A stretch of DNA of 64,000 nt from NCBI GenBank assembly GCA_036925085.1, contig JAUPFP010000044.1, positions 248,001 to 312,000 of the forward strand. The letters run 5' to 3'. The notes under the pieces are model-generated. The model ran no database searches. It was not told the origin of the DNA and saw only the letters and a list, made by a program, of their open reading frames with translations. The position numbers and the translations under genes were made by a program. Shown here one piece after another: positions 908-38,830 of this stretch. The stretch's first letter is position 1; each line of letters starts with the position of its first letter. Origin of the DNA: Brachycybe producta (lineage: Eukaryota; Arthropoda; Diplopoda; Playtdesmida; Andrognathidae).

Positions 908-3900
908 GTAAGATAATCTAATTTGGAAATGAAATTGTCAAATTTATTCACCTCTTAAATATAATTTTTTTTAATGAAGTTGTCGCCAAGATCCGAAATC
1001 GGTAGCAATACGATCGATAGCAGTATTGCAGATCGAGGCTTTTTTACTTCATCGTCTCTGCAACCAATCTTGCAATCTGATTCTGACGAGATTTTAACAA
1101 ATGCTTCTATTAATGTAACTAAACAAGAGGTGCCATTTGTGTGCAGTTACTTTTAAATTGTAATTTACTAATTTACATGTGGTTGTTTAATGTATAGGTT
1201 GTAAGCGAAAGCGTTTTCGAGAAATCTGACGTTGCTTCCAATTCTCATCTGTCAACTTCCGAATTCTTTGAACCAAATGGTTCTTTGTTATCGACTTGCG
1301 AATCTATCGACACGATGGTGCCTTGTAACCAACAACCTAATGGGGGTTCACGAGACGAGAGCCGACCATCCGAAACGCGTAACGAGAAGCCGATGACGTC
1401 AGATGGAGATGACAAAATTGCAATGAAATCTAGATTTAAGCTTCCATTGGCCATGAAGTCAGGTTATTAGGTCCCTCGTAGTTTTTTTTCAATACCGGCC
1501 TCGTCACTTAACAATGGAAATGTTGTTTTCAGAGGATGAATCGATCGATACGAATGCGGGAAAAATTGAAAAGAAAGCGAGCGGAACAGTTAAAAACATG
1601 TTATCGCAACTCCTCTCTACGTCAAGCACCGTTTTACTACAAGTTAGTTTTATTTTGCCTGATTGAAATCTGAAATTAAATTTTATTAAAATATCCGACT
1701 GGCGTTTTTTTTTTTTAGAATCCATTTTGTGCCACAGAACATCACCTTTTGCCTCGATGCGAGAAGGTTCCCGTCGTCGTATACGAAGACGAACCGAGCT
1801 CAATCATTGCTTACGCTCTCAGTTCTCCAGGTTACGAACTATCGATGCAAGAGTTAAAACTGTCTGCTGCGACAAATCAGCAGAAAGATTCTCGTAATTC
1901 GAGGCAAGTTTCTATATTTTTGATTTGATAATTATCGAGAGAACATCGGTTAATTTGTCGGTTTTCATTCTGTAGTCCTGTTTTAAAGAGGAAATCGGCT
2001 CCGAAAGAGACAACGGTTACTTCTAACAATTTGGACAGTTTAGCTGCGTCGAGTGTTGATGTTTTTCAAGGTTTGTACTGTTTTCTTTACTTATTATTGT
2101 TTGTTATTTATGAGAGTTCTGGTGAAGCTAAAGATGAATACTTTTATTTTAAAACTTTCCAGTATTTAAGTACAATAGCGTTATTTTTTTTAAAAGTTTT
2201 TTATTCGTTTTGGATGTGTGACTAACGAAAGAAAGAAAATCGATTCTAGCTTAAGCTAATTTTAAAATTGTAAACGTTCCTTGAGCATTATTCAGAAGAA
2301 AAAAAACTTGAAAGGGATTTAAAAACTGGAAGGGTAGATCATTTATTTAAGTTGGTTTTTGTATAGCTTATTTTCGAACTCTTGATTTATCAGGATTAAA
2401 ATTATGAAAAACTAGAAAGTGTTTTAGAAAGTTTCTTGTTGATATTTTGCAAAATAAGCTTTGTTATGCAGACGATGTTTTTTTTTTAATTTTTGTTTCT
2501 AAAAAGTTTATTTTGAAAGATATGAACATGAAACTTCTAGTTTGCAATACATTTAATTTTTTCTTAGCGTTGTTGTTAATGAAACGCAGAATTTTCTTAA
2601 AGAGACCATTACCTCGAGAGAAATTTCTTGTCAAAATATTGTCAAGAATTATTCAACGATTACCAAACAATTTTTAAAATTTAAAATAAGTGATTAATAT
2701 AATTTAAAAAAAAATAAAATAATCGATAATTATAATTTATATTTTAAATAATATTTTAAATAATATTTTATTTAATTTATTTATTATTATTTATTTAATT
2801 AATAATTTATAATTTTAAAAAAATAAAATAAGTGATTAATATAATTTTAAAAAATTTTAAAATAAGCGATTAATATAATTTTAAAAATTTTAAAATAAGT
2901 GATTAATATAATTTAAAAATAAAATAAAATAAGCGATTGATATAATTTAAAAAATGAAAAATCAGTTAACTTCATATTTATGACTTTATCTGATAGATGC
3001 GCCACCAAACAACAGACATTGGCAATAAAAAAAACCAAAGTATACACCTCTACTCAAATTTTGATGTCATCTTTACATTACTTTTAATTTCCTATTCAAA
3101 TATATTATGTATTCTCTATTCCTATCAAAGTACTATGGATTTAATATTGGAATTATGCCCACCTGACCACGTGACTCTCGAGTTGATTATAAAGTTGTAT
3201 TGAGTTTAATATGACTAGGGAATACAAGTATATGTGTTACGAATTATGGGAATGTCAGGTGACACAGGCAATTGTGCCCAGCATTAGAATTTGTTTTGCT
3301 CCGCCCTTTTATAACGTCAGACCAAGTAACAAACCAATTAGAAATTGAAAAGGGCGGGGCATCTGACATCAGACCAAGTAACAAACCAATTAGAAATTGA
3401 TGACGTTCATAAAAGGGCGGAGCAAAAGAAATTCTAATGCTGGGCACAATTGCCTGTTGAGGTGACAAGCTTTGCCACTAAATTAACAGAACAGCTGGAG
3501 ACAGCATGAACGATTCGTTTTCTCCGTTTCTAATTGGTTTGATAAATGGTGTGGTGTTATATGCCACGCCCTTTATTGAGGGACTCCAATTTCTAATTGG
3601 TTTGATGAAAACACCTGTCTAAATTAAGGGATAGACTTTCGTTTTTATAAATAAGGAAAAGTCACTTCATTCTTAAGTTTTATTTTTTGCGATTTTATTG
3701 ACTTATTTTTAATTTTTAAAATTGGTCATTGGGTAATTCTTAGACAGTATTTTGACACGAAATTTCTGGAGGTAATGGTCTCTTTAAGGGTATTTTCATG
3801 TTGATATTTTTTTGGAAAATTAGCTTTTTATGTTATTGTCAAAATGAGCAGGTGATATTTTAGATTATCGTCTCGTAAAAAGTTTATTTTGAAAGATATC

Positions 3901-6900
3901 AACATGAAAATACTCTTTAAGTTTGGTTGAACTACCGTTCTAGTTTTCTAAAACACCCTTCTGAATGAAGCGCGCCTATGAAATTTGTAAAAAAAATACT
4001 ACTTTCGATGTTTTCTTTTCATCTTCCTTCCTCGTCATTTGTATCTTTTTTTGTCCCACATTCGCACTTTTCAAGTCCCCGTTCGTAGGATGGGTTTCGG
4101 CCCGATGCTTTCTCTGTTTCGCAACTGCGAGCGTGGTACAACTGAAACCACTTCATGGCCCAGTCGCCCTTCAGCCACCACTTTTCAGGCTGTGCACTAC
4201 ACTGCTAATGTTATAACAGACAAAGAAACGAGTGGTTCCTCCTCTTTGACTGATGAAGGTACTTTTTTTTAGGCCCTCATCTCTCCTTCTACAAGTGCAA
4301 CCACTTTTGTTTTTATAAGTTTTTTCTGTTTATTTCAGTTGGCTGTTTGTTTGTTTTTTTGTTTTATTTTTCTTAAGGTAGCTGAATAGATATTTATTTT
4401 GGTTTTGTCTTCCTCCGGATGGCGTCACTGCAGTGGCTTATTATGTTTTGTCCCACAATTTTGAGAAAATTCATATTTTTTCAAGCGAACTTTCAGAAGA
4501 AACATTATGATAATAGTTATGGCAGTTTGAAAAAAGGCGAAAATTTTTTTTTAAAAATAATTTTTAAGAAATTGCCAAGAAAAAAAAAAACAAAATCTTT
4601 TACAATTCTAGTTTTGAAAACAATTGGAATTTTTTTCATAATGTTGTGTTTAAAAAAAAACGTTCACTTGACGTTTTTACGTCCAATTTTTCCGAAAAAA
4701 ATAAATATCTATTCAGCCACTTCAAGTGTGACATAGGTGCAGTTATTTTTATGCTTGTTGTCGTATTCGAATGGTGTTCGTAAAAATCTAATTTATTATT
4801 TTACGAATTCTTCATTGTTTCGTTCTTTTGTTTTACAGATGCTGGTGATTTACTCTTATCTGGACAGGATATCGACAAATCGAAGTCGGGAAACACCAAC
4901 AAGTTTCCAAATGTTCACGTCGAAGTTCAGTTTGCCGACGTAACGGCTAAATTCTACTGCCGAGTTTACTTTGCCGAACAGTTTCTGATGCTTAGACGAT
5001 TGATCTTTCCCGATGGCGAAGAAGCGTATTGTCGCTCGTTGTCTCGTTGTATCGATTGGATGGCAAAAGGTGGAAAGTCTGGATGCACTTTCAGAAAAAC
5101 GCGTGGTTTGTCAATTATTCTCGTAAAAGATTCGGAACAGAGATTTTATAAGAATTTTCAAAATACTTTTTTTTTTGTAGATGATCGTTTCATTCTGAAA
5201 CAAATGACGCGACTCGAAGTTCAGTCGTTTCTTGATTTTGCACCTCATTACGTTCAGTACGTGACGAAGGCTTGCATGGAACAGGTAAACTTATTTTTTT
5301 ATGGATAAGGATGTGTTTTATTAACAACATTATGAAAAAAATTCAAATTATTTTGAAAACTAGAATGGTAAATGATTATGTTAAAATGGCAATATCTTAA
5401 AAAATAAAGCATTTTATAATTCAGTTTGAAAATGAAACCGTTTTTAGGGTTTTCCATTGAAATTTCACGAAAAACTATTTTCGGCCTTTTTTTTTCAAAC
5501 TGTCATATAAAGTTTATTTTGAAAGATATCATCATTAAAAAAAAACTTTTAGCATTATCACCAACTATTCTAGTTTCTAAAACAATTTGAATTTTTTTCG
5601 TAATGTTTCTACTGACAAAAGTTCGCTTGAAAAATATAAATTTTCTCAAAACCGCAGGGGTAAGAAAAGACCTCCCTACAACAAGCATACAAGCGCGCCA
5701 CCTGGGGGAGGCAAAAATATCTATTCAGCCACCTTAAGGTGGTTTTCATGGCATAAACGCTGCTTAAACTTTTTGATTATTCCTGTCTTTCAGGTGCAAA
5801 ATAAAGAAAAACTTGAAAGTTTTTAGAAACTAGAAGGGTATCTCAATCACTTAAGGGTTTTTTAATCTTGATATCTTTCAAAATAAACGATATTTATTTA
5901 TTTTTTGTCTATGTAAAAGTTTATTTGGAAAGATATCAACATAAAATTACCAGTGAATGATAGACCTACCCTTCTAGTTTCTAAAACACTTTGTGATTTT
6001 TTCTTTTCTTAGTTTTGCTCTTCTGAGATAACCAGAGTTCGAAAATCAGCTGTTCCTAAACCAGCTTAATTTTCGGATAGAACCATTCTTCGAAAGAGAG
6101 AAAGCGAGTTATACAAATTATATAAGTAGGAAATTTTTATTTTGTACAGAGACCGACCGTTCTAGCAAAGATCGTTGGTAGCTATCGAATCGTTTATCGT
6201 AACATACAGACGAACGCAACGTCCAAGATGGATCTTCTAGTAATGGAAAACCTCTTTTACGGTCGTAGCGTTAACCAGCGGTTCGACTTGAAAGGTTCGG
6301 TACGAAACAGGCTCGTAAATACGGCCGGCAAACACGGTTCTGATACAGTACTTCTTGACGAAAATCTTCTGAAAAGTAATATATTATACGGAATTTCGTG
6401 TCTTCGTCACTTATTCTCTCTTTCTTTACTTTTCAAGTGACATGTGACAAACCGTTGTACATTCGTCCTCATTCGAAAACCGTCTTAACTTTGGCCATCA
6501 ATAATGACACTCAATTCTTGGCTCAACATTTGGTTATGGACTATTCGTTACTAGTAGGAATCGATGACGAGGATCGTGAACTGGTTATCGGCATTATAGG
6601 TAGGGGAAGATTCCTTTCTTATTTTTTTATTCATTGTTTTTACACTTTTGATTTATTCGTATTCTCAATAAGTTGCGCTTGATTTACTGTTGTTGTGTTT
6701 GCATTGCTTGGTTTTTGGTGGCTTTCGTTGTACCTGAACTTGTAGTGGCCTTTCTCGGTCAGCACTTAGTTTTTCCCCGACGTTCTCGTCTAGAGTTGCG
6801 CTTAATTTGCTGTTGTCATGTTTGTTTTGTTTGGTTTGGGTGGCTCTGTTGTACTACAACACGTAGTGGCATATTTCACGGTGATCACTTGGTTTCTCCG

Positions 6901-9061: not shown

Positions 9062-9918
9062 TTATAATTCGACATTTAGATGTTTGTAATCGTATTTGAT
9101 GAAAACGTTGTGGCATTTCTCTTGAATCTCTGCGATTACAGTTGGGTTTAAGTTGAGTTTCCAGTGCTCGTGGTCAAAGTCAGAGTTTCTGTACGTAGAA
9201 TAGTACTGCTGTGCCTCTCTGGCCACGGTTTCATTATTCTCGGCTTTCGTGTGTTTCTGTATGTAAAGTTTTACTTCTGGAGACATGTCGACACCGAGGA
9301 AGTTCTCGTACAGATCTCTGACGACGTTCACTGGATCGTTAACCACATCCTCGTACTTGATACGACGGTAGACATTTTTAGGGAACGCATCCACTAGTTT
9401 GGAATCTCTTTCCATAACTTCGCAAATGCCGTCTATGGATTTATCTTTTTCGTTCCAAGTTCCGAGTTTGGAGTTTGCAGAATTGTACCTTGCTCGTGGA
9501 TCTCGTATCAGATGGATTATCTTTAAGTTTGGAACGGTTCCGCTAGCATACAGTTCGAGGGCGTCTTTTATTCGAAAGCGAATGGTTTTTGTCAGGTGAA
9601 TCGGTGTTTTCGAACAAAGTTTGGCAAGTTTTTCTTTGGGGTACACATTCGTGTCTCGGAATGTCGACCATGTTTCTTGAAATTTACGGATAATGTGAAA
9701 CGTCAAGTATCGTAGATTGTCCAGAGTAGAAGCATCACAGTTTAGCAGTTTACGAATCGATTCCTGGTATTGCTTACTGCTGGTGTTGTGTAAAATGTTC
9801 TTATCGTAAAAGAGTGGTTCAAAGTAATAGCTGAAGTTGGCGTTAACCGCTAGAGTTTCTCCGATAAAGGAAGATCCCGAACGAGGATACGACAACAAAA
9901 TAACGTTCGTTGGGTTCC
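9062..9918 (-). CDS. Sulfotransferase copy 1, exon 2 (catalytic)
   Basis: The acceptor reads CTATTACAG before GGAACCCAACG. The open frame continues upstream into the intron to 9973, so that longer frame's apparent Met is not the start. Encodes the complete sulfotransferase domain: SYPRSGSSF, YFEPLFY, IRDPRARYNS, YEDVVNDP, then LNVEL and stop. Confidence 0.93.
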
Positions 9919-10486
9919 CTGTAATAGAAATAAAACGGTAGCAAATTGTAACATGCAATATTATTATTTTCATGTTGTTATCTTTGAAACTAAACGATTT
10001 TTAAAAAAATATTTTCACTTTTATAAGTTGCCATTTTCAGTATAAAGTTTATTTTCAAAGATGTTACGTATTTTTTTTTTACTTTTCTAGTTTCTTTTTA
10101 AACTTCACAGTTGTTTCTAAAATACTAGATAACCTCTTGCTTTGCCCCTTGTGTCCTTCAAATATTAAAGTTAGGATTAGTTTATAACTAAATATTATTC
10201 TCATGTTTGATTCGATTTTGATATCTTTGAAAATAAACGATTTAATGGTATTTTGAAAAGCAAAATATTGTATTTTTCACTTTTCGAATTTGCCAGCTTG
10301 CGATGTAAAGTTTTTTTTTTCCAAAGATATCAACTTGCAAATTCTACTATTGAATGTTTTTACTTTTCTAGTTTCTTTACCTGTTTCATCTTTATGGATC
10401 ATTTCTTGACTGTAACAGGTGATAATAAGACATGACAATAGAATTATCTTCTGTAGTAGCCAGTTCCAGTTAAGAATTGTCTCCAT
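9062..10486 (-). CDS. Carbohydrate 6-O-sulfotransferase (CHST-like), tandem copy 1
   Basis: Two exons on the minus strand: 10381-10486 (35 codons plus one base, ATG at 10484-10486) and 9062-9918 (stop TAA at 9062-9064), joined in phase to give 320 residues. The family transfers sulfate from PAPS to C6 of Gal, GalNAc or GlcNAc in the Golgi. Exon 1 encodes a short cytoplasmic tail and a hydrophobic anchor (IILLSCLIITCYS, about residues 14-26), as in type II Golgi enzymes. Exon 2 begins GNPTNVILLSYPRSGSSF with the 5'-phosphosulfate-binding motif at residues 45-53; the 3'-phosphate-binding motif IIHLIRDPRARYNS is near residues 169-182. It is short for the family (vertebrate members about 390-530), with little stem region. 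An upstream in-frame ATG at 10538-10540 could lengthen the tail. Substrate cannot be told from sequence. Confidence 0.92.
10381..10486 (-). CDS. Sulfotransferase copy 1, exon 1 (signal anchor)
   Basis: Starts METILNWNWLLQK and ends HKDET plus one base before the donor G|GTAAAG. A single hydrophobic segment gives type II membrane topology. The exon is preserved with few changes in copy 2 (14255-14360), which supports it being coding. Confidence 0.85.
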
Positions 10487-10540: not shown

Positions 10541-11810
10541 TAGTTTGGTCCTCCGAACCTTTTAAACGTGTCATGGCGCCCAAATAAACAAAAGTGTCCT
10601 CGTCATTTGCATTCTTAGTTTACAGATGTTTTACACCTGGTTTCGGTTATGTTTTGGCGGTAATTTTTTCTGAACCTGTTGTTTTTCTAAGTGCAAAATG
10701 TTTACAATGTTTACAATATGTGCCAAAAAATATGAATACACACTTTAATTGTTATTAACTGCCATGTTTATTTTCTTATATTGAATTTTATAATTTTATA
10801 ATTAAAGAGTAAATGTTACAATAAAGTTTAGATGTAAACAGCATTGCATCTTTTATGTTGAAATATGATGCATTATTGTCTCAATTTTTTAAAAATGTCT
10901 TCCATTGGCATGGCTGACATCGCGCGGTAAGAAACTGATCTGCAAACATCAATTAACGTATTTTTTTTAAATTGTGCGACAATTCTCTCTGATTTCTTTC
11001 CATTTTATAATAATTATGGCAAGATATATCGAAGAGAATTGTTGCACAATTGCAACAGATTGATGTTTGTAGATTTAATTTATCACCGACGTCAGCAATG
11101 CTTGACTGGAAATGCATCATTTCAATATATAAAACATAAGATGCTGTTTATATCTAACTTTCTCGTTAACGTATTAAACTCTTAATTATAAAATTAATTT
11201 AAAAAAAATACATATGGCAATTATTAACAACCAAAGTGAGTATAGATCTACATATTTTTGGGACATACTGTATACTATGTTGACTATTAACTGACTGTTA
11301 ACTATGTTGTCAGGTTAATCACATACATTAATAACTTAAGTATTTAATTAAAACATAATAATGCAAACTATACAAATGAAGTAATTGGAATTTTGTTACT
11401 AGAAGAGTAAATAAACCATTTAGAAGTGTTTATGTTGATATGTTTCATTAAAACAAATGTATGAATATTCAAAATATGTAAATGAATATGAAATACACTG
11501 GAATATAATTTTTAATTATTCTGCATTTCAAAAGCCGACATTAAAAATCAAATCAAAAGTGTTTTAAAAACTAGAAGAGTAAATGAAACACTTAATAAAA
11601 AGAAACTCGTTATCGCAATTTCAGTTTTTCGATTGTTGATTTTTTACGTCAAATTATCACAAAAAAAAATCGAAAGTAAATTGATTTTGTTAGCAATGAA
11701 ATAGGAAACTGAATAGTTTAGTAGTTTATTTATTTTTTTTAAGATATGAACATGAAATACTGTCTGAAGAAGGTTCTTTATGAATATTTGCATAAACACA
11801 AAAAAGATCT
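10541..11810. other. Intergenic part of duplicate unit 1; no gene seen
   Basis: Holds an old repeat block at about 10895-11130 (CTTCCATTGGCATGGCTGAC ... CAACAGATTGATGTTTGTAG), shared with 15830-16065, and a family A end at about 11555-11770. The block contains an inverted pair, CTGCAAACATCAATTAA / TTGATGTTTGTAG. The rest is AT-rich. Confidence 0.6.
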
Positions 11811-13200: not shown

Positions 13201-14057
13201 TTATAGTTCGACATTTAGAAGTTTGTAATTGTATTTGACGAAGACGTTGTGGCATTTCTCTTGAATCTCTTTGATTACAGTTGGGTTTAAGTTGAGTTTC
13301 CAGTGCTCGTGGTCAAAGTCAGAGTTTCTGTACGTAGAATAGTACTGCAGTGCCTCTCTGGCCACGGTTTCATCATTCTCGGCATTCGTGTGTTTCTGTA
13401 TATAAAGTTTTACTTCTGGAGACATGTCGACACCGAGGAAGTTCTCGTACAGATCTCTGACGACGTTCACTGGATCGTTAACCACATCCTCGTACTTGAT
13501 ACGACGGTAGACATTTTTAGGGAACGCATCCACTAGTTCGGAATCTCTTTCCATAATTTCGCAAATACTGTCTATGGATTTATCTTTTTCGTTCCAAGTT
13601 CCCAGTTTAGAGTTTGCAGAATTGTACCTTGCTCGTGGATCTCTTATCAGATGGATTATCTTTAAGTTTGGAACGGTTCCACTAGCATACAGTTCGAGGG
13701 CGTCTTTTATTCGAAAGCGAATGGTTTTTGTCAGGTGAATCGGTGTTTTCGAACAAAGTTTGGCAAGTTTTTCTTTGGGGTACACATTCGTTTCTCGGAA
13801 TGTCGACCAGGTTTCTTGAAATTTACGAATAATCCAAAACGTCAAGTATCGTAGATTGTCCAGAGTTGAAGCATCACAGTTTAGCAGTTTACGAATCGAT
13901 TCCTGGTATTGCTTACTGCTGGTGTTGTGTAAAATGTGCTGATCGTAAAAGAGTGGTTCAAAGTAATAGCTGAAGTTGGCGTTAACCGCTAGAGTTTCTC
14001 CGACAAAGGAAGATCCCGAACGAAGATACGATAACAAAATAACGTTCGTTGGGTTCC
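13201..14057 (-). CDS. Sulfotransferase copy 2, exon 2 (catalytic)
   Basis: Acceptor CTATTACAG as in copy 1; stop TAA at 13201-13203. Open throughout, no frameshift. Confidence 0.92.
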
Positions 14058-24028: not shown

Positions 24029-24939
24029 TTTTAAGAGCCTAGATACATCGTTTAGTTCAAAATTTCTCCGAATGTAGGCGCTGCGATCGTTGTTGATCGA
24101 AAAACGGTTTTTTAACGTTTTTTTTCCCCGTTTCGAAGTCACATAATAATTAATAGAAAAATAATTTCGCGTGCTTATCTCATAAAAAGAAAACATGGTG
24201 AAGCCAATAGATTAATGCACGTGCTAATTTTTGTGTGATTCTTCTAAGTCGTTTTTAATGGGAGTTCTTCAAATGTTTGGATGACGGTTTTTTGGTCCTA
24301 TGGGAATTAACATGGAGTCAAAAAAACGTAAGATTTTAAATGTTATTTAAAAATAGAAAGCCCGTTTCAAATTTAGAAAAAGGAATAATACCGAAGGCAA
24401 TAAACACGTGTAAGTACGTGCTAATTTTTCTGATTGCTCTAAATCATTTTTAATCAGAGTTCTCTTAACTTTTGTTGGACGGTGTTTTAGTCCTATGGGA
24501 CTTAACTTGGAGTTAAAAAACGTACGATTTTAAACGTTATTAAAAAATAGAAGGACCTTTTCAAAATTTATAAAAAGGAAACATCGTGAAGCCAATACAT
24601 GAATGTATGTGCTAATTATTTCGTTATTGTTCTAAATCAGTTTTAACGAGAGTTTTTCAAATGTTTATGGGACGGTTTTTGATCCTATGGGATTTAACAT
24701 GGGGTTGAAAAAACGAACGACTTTGAACCTTGTTTAAAAATAGAAGGACCTTTTTCATAAATTATATAAATCGAGCACGTGAAGAACAATACTTTTTATT
24801 GCATTTTGCGCTTTACTGTATTTTAATTGAGCGATTGTGAGGCGATTTCTTGCAGTTTTAGTAACACCATATAAGAACACTCATTTGTCTCGTTGTCGTC
24901 TGCTCAAAACAAGATGGACGTGGATCTAGGCTCTTAAAA
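24029..24939. mobile_element. Element with TTTTAAGAGCCTAGAT ends and three internal 190-bp tandem repeats
   Basis: Left end TTTTAAGAGCCTAGAT (about 24029), right end ATCTAGGCTCTTAAAA (to 24939). Inside, GTGCTAATT recurs at 24221, 24418 and 24609 (spacings about 197 and 191), each followed by GGTCCTATGGGA-like and TAAAAATAGAA words. No coding frame; probably a non-autonomous DNA transposon. Confidence 0.65.
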
Positions 24940-37507: not shown

Positions 37508-37516
37508 TGTATTACT

Positions 37517-38114
37517 GGGTCAGGATAAAAAGATGAACGAATGAACGGGATGAATGGGATGAACATTGGGGTAACTCTAAAACCCGACACAGAATGCATA
37601 TAGAATAAGATGAACACTATATCATGGATGAACACACATTTTAAAGGGATGAACAGAGAAATAAAAGGATGAACAGAAAAATAAAAGGATGAACAGAAAA
37701 ATAAAAGGATGAACAGAAAAATAAAAGGATAAACATTCTTTAAAGGGATGAACATGGTTTTAAGGGGGATGAACATGGTTTTAGGTTAGGTTAGGTTTGG
37801 TTAGGTAACCGAACCTAACCTAACCGAACCAAACCTAACCTAACCTAACCTAACCTAACCCCATAAAGCCATGTTCATCCCCCCTAAAACCATGTTCATC
37901 CCCCCTAAAACCATGTTCAGCCCCCTTAAACCCATGTTCATTCCTTTAAAGTATGTTCATCCTTTTATTTCTCTCTGTTCATCTTTTTAAAAAGGGTTCA
38001 TTAATTAAAATATAGTGTTCATCTAATTCTATATGTATTTTGTGTCGGGTTTTAGAGTTACCCCAATGTTCATCCCGTTCATTCTTTCATTCGTTCATCT
38101 TTTTATCCTGACCC
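37517..38114. mobile_element. Mutator-like fold-back transposon, 598 bp, exact 9-bp target duplication, telomere-like core
   Basis: TGTATTACT is directly repeated at 37508-37516 and 38115-38123. The element opens GGGTCAGGATAAAAAGATGA and closes TCATCTTTTTATCCTGACCC; the arms are near-complete inverted copies of about 260 bp and include GGGGTAACTCTAAAACCCGA / TCGGGTTTTAGAGTTACCCC. The left arm holds a 20-bp tandem unit (AAATAAAAGGATGAACAGAA, about 4 copies, 37658-37735). The core 37781-37861 is GGTTAGGTTAGG... turning into CCTAACCTAACC. Long arms and 9-bp duplications fit MULE or Foldback-type transposons; no transposase inside. Confidence 0.88.
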
Positions 38115-38830
38115 TGTATTACTTTATAATGTTGAACTATAAGGCTATTAATTTCAACAGTTGTTAACAAGACATTTTGGCTACCCTGTATATAAAAGTA
38201 TAGAAGACACACTTTTCAAACATCAGACAGACAGACAGACAAAATAGCATAAAGTACAACATGAAATCAAGGTGGACACAACTATGTGGTTAAAATGTGG
38301 CTAACCGATGGTCACTTCACTTTTTTTTTTTTCAGTCGCATTCCACCCAAATTTCGGAGGGTTTTTGCTTTTTCATATAATAATAATAATATTACTGATA
38401 CAAAAAGGAACAATTTTCTTTATTCTTCCCTCCCCCCCCCCTCTCTCTCTCTTTCCAATCTTATGGATAACATTTTTACCCTCCTCATAATTTTGTTTTT
38501 ATCCCCTCTTTGTTTTTTTCTTTATAAGTTGAATCTCATGATGGAAGGAAGGTCTTTATATTATAAGTAGACCTCTATATAGTAGTAAATATACTGACCA
38601 TCATGACTAGTCTAGCTCTGACCATATACTAAGTTCTCCATCTTTTTTGTTCTTCTAGTCTCTTCTGTCAATGTTATAGTGTGTTGAAACCCCATAGCAT
38701 CTGGCTGTAATCAAACATAATAAGCTACTGAGATCAACCTTATAATTTTCTCTTTCTCTCTCTCTCTCTCCCCACCATTTTTCAGTCTATATCCCACCGT
38801 CGCGCCGCCATTTCTATTATATTTCTCTAT

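Follow-up and report, generated by a model that had tools for sequence, protein, structure and literature searches.

Introduction

Among the foldback transposons, the closest described counterparts of the element considered here are Tm1 and Tetris. The Mutator/Foldback family Tm1 of the root-knot nematode has inverted repeats that are composites of short tandem units, target duplications of 8-10 bp (mostly 9 bp) and mostly non-autonomous members, together with a member of its own that encodes a Mutator-like element (MULE) transposase, according to the parts of its description consulted (PMC3169594). Tetris, a foldback of Drosophila virilis, also makes 8-10 bp duplications, has no transposase found for it in the portions of the account used, and has given rise to kilobase satellite arrays from its arm repeats (PMC4079207). 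This article describes a foldback family with a telomere-like centre (the hinge) from the genome of Brachycybe producta (295.3 Mb in 442 contigs), starting from a copy in a stretch of 64 kb, C44:248001-312000, which is referred to throughout as the window. The kind of element is an ordinary one, a Mutator-type foldback like Tm1 and Tetris; what is unusual is its inherited telomere-like core.

Interstitial telomeric sequences are usually read as the scars of chromosome fusions or of single repaired breaks. In vertebrates, the excerpts consulted describe break repair that leaves in-register GG or GGG ends, the horse being an example, and for the head-to-head telomeric stretches of mouse lemur and Xenopus the authors invoke a second telomerase action across the break (PMC7215372; PMC8537989). 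The family described here resembles these vertebrate sites, as far as those excerpts go, in its in-register arrays and GG ends, a few of the vertebrate sites also being head to head; it differs from them in that a transposon has spread a single composite (PMC7215372; PMC8537989). Differences from the known foldbacks are equally clear. Tm1 has units of 13-15 bp and other ends, the main text of its description is without telomer, hinge or loop, and a MULE-coding member, which Tm1 possesses, was not found here with the family's ends (PMC3169594). The arm repeats of Tetris are TIR-220, and no telomere-like hinge was seen in the parts of its account consulted (PMC4079207). A foldback or MULE family whose hinge is telomere-like was not found to have been described before in the open-licence literature, covered mostly as titles and the openings of abstracts.

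A foldback family with a telomere-like hinge

The element occupies window 37517-38114 (598 bp) and is bounded by exact 9-bp direct repeats, its terminal 23-mers being exact inverses of one another. An original prediction made from the letters of the window alone had proposed a fold-back with near-complete inverted arms, and this anatomy is borne out, with 95% complementarity between the arms in each of two outer blocks (37 and 73 nt) and 92% over a 71-nt block further in. Folding of the single strand gives -208.7 kcal/mol, as against -56.5 +/- 5.0 for 100 dinucleotide shuffles, and the element has the long inverted arms of short tandem repeats with little or no middle that characterize a foldback. 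The 20-bp tandem array that had been predicted for one arm is present in the left one, but a 21-bp array in the right arm had been overlooked. Between the arms, units that are mostly TTAGG meet units that are mostly CCTAA, and this is the sole place in the window where at least two consecutive GGTT[A/C/T] units are followed by GG (or the complement). The units do meet head to head, as had been predicted, but the array is not pure TTAGG: over 32 members, the TTAGG type accounts for 110 of 184 GGTT[N]GG units, and TTCGG (47), TTTGG (24) and TTGGG (3) make up the others.

Across the genome the terminal 23-mer occurs at 498 sites with up to two mismatches (259 + 239), against none for the reversed-pattern control. 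Of the family, 32 complete copies, none longer than 1300 bp, and, handled apart, 19 one-ended loci were examined. Eight of the complete copies were picked by similarity to the window and 24 were taken around exact end matches on contigs C1 to C8 only. The length limit removed one of 33 elements from the complete-copy table (L072, first end, in which a hinge is present), and the second end of L075 (position 3196) is not in the counts. Target duplications are exact over 9 bp in 12 of the complete copies, over 8 bp in five and over 7 bp in one; 11 further copies have duplications with one or two mismatches, and three have none. Random placement produced exact 8-mer duplications in 0 of 5400 trials. 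In some copies (C17:2410645-2413966, L040, L041, L059 and L060) the 20-21 bp arm unit is amplified beyond 1.3 kb, giving arrays that look like satellite seeds; the tandem units of the arms expand and contract.

Distribution and inheritance of the hinge

Telomere-like units are present in 26 of the 32 complete copies, on both sides in 21 and on one side in five. Among the 24 copies that were not picked by similarity, both sides carry them in 14, one side in four and neither in six. Only two of the one-ended loci (L055 and L080) show a hinge centre in the 1.5 kb next to the end; among the rest, at least eight contain arrays of 20-21 bp units longer than 300 bp, and many end inside long arrays. 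The question that the original prediction had posed, whether every copy in the genome has the hinge, is answered in the negative: most complete copies have it, but six of the 32 do not. The hinge also varies in size, reaching 22 GGTTNGG matches in L079.

The boundary of the hinge with the arms is recognizable genome-wide, junction 1 at 117 sites and junction 2 at 89 sites with up to two mismatches, the reversed-pattern controls giving 0. Because junction 1 sits on both sides in some copies, the number of copies with a recognizable hinge is estimated at about a hundred. A degenerate pattern for the head-to-head centre matches 149 sites with at most one mismatch (control, 11), and among the 50 exact centres listed, on C1 to C13, 36 lie within this family.

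Chance resemblance was considered as a source of the pattern and is ruled out by the end, junction and centre counts, since 498 end sites and 117 and 89 junction sites face controls of 0.

Two arm types can be told apart by slight differences, and their pairing with the junctions is informative as to descent. Fifteen copies allowed different calls for the two arms and for the two junctions, and in 14 of these arm A is joined to junction 1 and arm B to junction 2; the other 11 hinge copies, in which the arms are alike, the junctions are alike or a junction is missing, are uninformative. In the exception, L081, a nested transposon lies in the scored part of the left arm. The orientation of the hinge is tied to arm type, and hence the hinge was already in the common founder in the same orientation. 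The hinge is thus inherited from one founder.

The telomere repeat of the genome

Telomere arrays were looked at in the contig starts of C1 and C50. On C1, where N are seen at 3501-5000, perfect CCTAA repeats run from position 5001 past 6500 and recur at 11200-11330; C50 begins, as far as read, with 1.3 kb of CCTAA repeats with small irregularities. Both arrays are in telomere orientation. The genome also encodes a telomerase RNA-binding domain (C28:1327414-1327773; E = 2.6e-19), for which the control matched in 0 of 14 genomes. From these two contig starts, as far as read, TTAGG is the telomere repeat of this genome, in keeping with the original prediction, which had named TTAGG as the arthropod telomere unit, and it follows that the hinge resembles the host's own telomere. 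As an array of the host unit at an internal site, the hinge is an interstitial telomeric sequence, but a degenerate one. Beside the C1 telomere array, in L089 (C1:11200-12300), a degenerate AGGTTCATAGGTT repeat follows in the opposite orientation.

Other telomere-like DNA in the genome

Telomere-like DNA is by no means confined to this family. A 17-mer pattern that demands a variant unit has 3849 matches in the genome, as against 343 for its control. The first 100 of these fall into 28 clusters in the stretch of C1 from 3.57 to 11.08 Mb. A second, unrelated repeat family is found no more than 0.7 kb from 10 of the clusters; the foldback family has three listed exact ends in this stretch, and no cluster comes within 5 kb of any of them. 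The second family is interspersed (pattern ACGTCAGACTGTGCAGATTTACA, 463 sites; control, 0), and the four copies fetched (L092 on C12, L093 on C6, L095 on C72 and L096 on C26) have a CCTAA-type core accompanied by TTCAGTTTGGCG tandem units. Where both sides were seen these units run in a single orientation, and the second family is therefore not a foldback of this kind.

Perfect arrays are distributed in a similar way. Nine sites matched a pattern of six perfect units starting after a non-G base, which misses arrays preceded by G: two in the start arrays of C1 and C50, four in the second family, one in this family and two elsewhere (L091 and L094). The second family thus hosts four of the seven interstitial sites. 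The site in this family is C14:72254, within the copy C14:72074-72632 and beside junction 1 at C14:72238. The earlier suggestion that the element may seed interstitial telomeric sites stands in so far as it carries such sites; among the sites examined, however, the foldback family is a minor carrier. On the site tally, it is rejected as the chief source of interstitial TTAGG.

A third setting is a MULE gene on C13, with an equal score on C28, that is followed by 21-bp units, GTTGAGATACTAAGTCAACAT, unlike the foldback arm units in sequence. In the stretches read (L099 and L101, C13:547324-550824), motifs of the form GGTTAGGTTAGG...CATAACCAAACC face each other three times; they amount to GGTTAGG.../...CCAAACC and are enclosed by the GTTGAGATACTAAGTCAACAT units. 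Telomere-like cores are thus found in at least two other repeat types of this genome.

Origin of the core

The junctions bear on how the core may have arisen. Junction 2, in which GGTTTTATGGGG is followed directly by TTAGG, is the 21-bp arm unit (GGTTTTAGGGG...) with one change, and its terminal GG keeps the TTAGG register; the last bases of junction 1 are TTAG. In the origin we propose, the centre of a founder foldback would have been filled head-to-head with telomeric DNA of the host, most readily through a double-strand break at which both ends gained telomere repeats during repair, by addition or by capture. The centres of foldbacks, being palindromes, are expected to break often. The resulting composite of arm A, TTAGG array, CCTAA array and arm B would then have multiplied as a single unit, and the element would now be spreading short, degenerate, interstitial telomere-like sites. 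That the element exists as described, that its hinge was inherited and that the core had a telomeric source, by whatever route, we regard as jointly probable. The break-repair route taken by itself is put forward tentatively, as something a little short of probable, and it overlaps with the capture of an existing array.

Several observations weigh against a telomeric source reached in this manner. Degenerate GGTTN arrays are plentiful throughout the genome outside the foldback family, and up to 14 of the 50 exact head-to-head centres also lie outside it. Six of the 32 complete copies, and 17 of the 19 one-ended loci, are without a hinge centre. Telomerase would not directly write the 74 of 184 hinge units that are not TTAGG, so that age or slippage must be added to the account. 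Lastly, the 21-bp arm unit itself contains GGTTTTAGG, at its end, which local slippage could turn into GGTTAGG in the absence of telomeres.

The first of these observations favours capture, by template switching or nested insertion, of an interspersed telomere-like repeat that was already present, with inverted duplication or on two occasions. The 3849 variant matches would have offered ample material, 10 of the 28 clusters in the first 100 lying beside the other family, and the variants TTCGG and TTTGG are common to the hinge and to the genome's degenerate arrays. Capture would nevertheless leave unexplained both the placing of the array at the centre of a palindrome and the facing motifs of a different element on C13. 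We consider it quite possible without calling it likely, and it is compatible with an earlier telomeric source, so that it overlaps with the explanation preferred here.

Local slippage would dispense with telomeres altogether. The GGTTTTAGG end of the arm unit would have lost bases and then multiplied as GGTTN repeats to either side of the palindrome centre, and the likeness to telomeres would be convergence on a G/T-rich pentamer. Consistent with this, junction 1 passes directly from GTTTTAG to TTTAGG, the hinge units include TTCGG and TTTGG variants, and the size of the hinge varies. Against it, the commonest hinge unit is the exact telomere unit of the host, and the same arrays occur in repeats whose units hold no GGTT, namely the four TTCAGTTTGGCG copies and the C13 MULE element with its GTTGAGATACTAAGTCAACAT units. 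Slippage as the origin of the core is accordingly judged unlikely.

If a telomeric source applies to this family, it may also apply more widely. The foldback family, the TTCAGTTTGGCG family and the C13/C28 MULE element are three candidates for independent cores, and telomere-based break repair might have built such cores repeatedly, at least three times, in transposons made prone to breakage by hairpins or tandem arrays. Transposition of the composites, not chromosome fusion, would then be the main route by which interstitial telomeric DNA spread here. We find this wider proposal doubtful at present.

Transposase class and a sister family

The duplications of exactly 9 bp (12 of 32 copies) and 8 bp (5 of 32) fall within the 8-11 bp range of Mutator elements. 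Matches to the MULE domain number 21 in the genome (the control matched in three of 14 genomes), and six of these are arranged as three inverted pairs, one each on C2, C5 and C38, that all belong to a sister foldback family. All three pairs are enclosed by exact opposed ends, GGGTCAGACTAAAACACGGAAA, which occur at 267 sites in the genome (control, 0). Over the first 14 terminal bases the sister and window families agree at 12, a match reached by two of 200,000 random pairs, or by 86 of 200,000 when GGG is given. The nested transposon of L081 (C7:422935-426985) is a 573-bp sister foldback at locus positions 3134-3706 with the duplication CATTGGGGT; when it and one 9-bp duplication are taken out, the window-family sequence is continuous.

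Because of the 8-9 bp duplications, and of ends that are like those of the MULE-enclosing sister family, the window family is provisionally placed with Mutator. It is a non-autonomous foldback, most probably mobilized in trans by a MULE transposase that would recognize the GGGTCAG... ends and cut and paste the element, leaving 8-9 bp duplications. The predicted Mutator-like character is accordingly upheld as regards the target duplications but not as regards a transposase: a MULE gene with the exact ends of the window family (compared as GGGTCAGGATAAAAAG) was not found, the 3' flanks of two of the 15 matches beyond the sister family having been read (C89:451352, L098; C13:547324, L099 and L101), and this counts against the affiliation. 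A non-Mutator foldback lineage, for example of the P superfamily like Galileo, would fit with the family's own transposase not having been found, and separate lineages may each evolve the foldback form on their own, according to the part of the Tetris account consulted (PMC4079207). The 8-9 bp duplications and the similarity of the ends to those of a MULE-coding foldback family make it very unlikely; it concerns the class of transposase and not the origin of the hinge.

Rehavkus, as presented in the extracts consulted, is similar in its 9-bp duplication, its minisatellite near the ends and its arthropod hosts (PMC6446971; PMC10218199). The link runs through the sister family only, by way of its MULE gene, a sub-threshold PHD finger and arm minisatellites, the window family being non-coding as far as read. 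The C-terminal part of the C2 sister transposase matches PHD at E = 6.9e-4 and 20.0 bits, below the cut-off of 24, and SWIM at 16.8 bits, below the cut-off of 19.6. The sister family has a minisatellite before the 3' end, in the TTTTCCGCGCTTTTCCGTG arms of the C2 element (L097 and L100), and, in the one copy checked, that of L081, the 9-bp duplication CATTGGGGT. On these likenesses the sister family may be said to recall Rehavkus, within the limits of the extracts used (PMC6446971).

Role of the hinge

The original prediction had raised the possibility that the repeat serves as a hinge for replication or folding back. Most of the hinge folds as stem, so that it need not serve as an unpaired loop, and the proposed account calls for no role of it in transposition. 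That the core acts by binding telomere proteins, or by directing breakage, replication restart or insertion, is most improbable: although 26 of the 32 complete copies have it on at least one side, this retention is explained by shared descent, the units are degenerate, and the hinge-less copies L056 (8 bp) and L072 (9 bp) also have exact target duplications.

Implications

A transposon family thus seems to have taken up a scar of the kind left by a repaired break or fusion and to have scattered it to about a hundred places, which gives a concrete route for the spread of telomere repeats inside chromosomes. TTAGG signals and head-to-head telomere motifs need not, for this reason, denote fusions. 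The many copies are available for measuring the decay of telomere repeats. If several types of element did gain their cores independently, the centres of palindromes would be natural traps for telomerase.

Features of the window and of the sister elements

The coordinates of the element and of the sister MULE pairs are collected in Table 1.

Table 1. Parts of the foldback element (window positions) and sister elements with paired MULE domains (contig positions).
Feature	Position	Strand	Remark
Target site duplication, left copy	37508-37516	.	9 bp, TGTATTACT
Left terminal 23-mer	37517-37539	+	GGGTCAGGATAAAAAGATGAACG; 498 genome sites at <=2 mismatches
Left arm, type A	37517-37780	+	
20-bp tandem array, in left arm	37642-37735	+	4.7 copies
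Hinge, G-rich half	37781-37806	+	GGTTN units, TTAGG predominating
Head-to-head centre	37799-37815	.	GGTTAGGTAACCGAACC
Hinge, C-rich half	37807-37860	-	NAACC units, CCTAA predominating
21-bp tandem array, in right arm	37859-37941	-	4.0 copies; >1.3 kb in some other copies
Right arm, type B	37861-38114	-	
Right terminal 23-mer	38092-38114	-	exact inverse of left
Target site duplication, right copy	38115-38123	.	TGTATTACT
Sister MULE-pair element	C2:4229405-4243488		14.1 kb
Sister MULE-pair element	C5:5398643-5412657		14.0 kb
Sister MULE-pair element	C38:889843-903077		13.2 kb

The window also holds three copies of a tandem unit of about 193-195 bp, at 24182-24770, and a pair of nearly alike open frames, both on the minus strand, at 9062-9973 and 13201-14037, which may be sulfotransferase-like.
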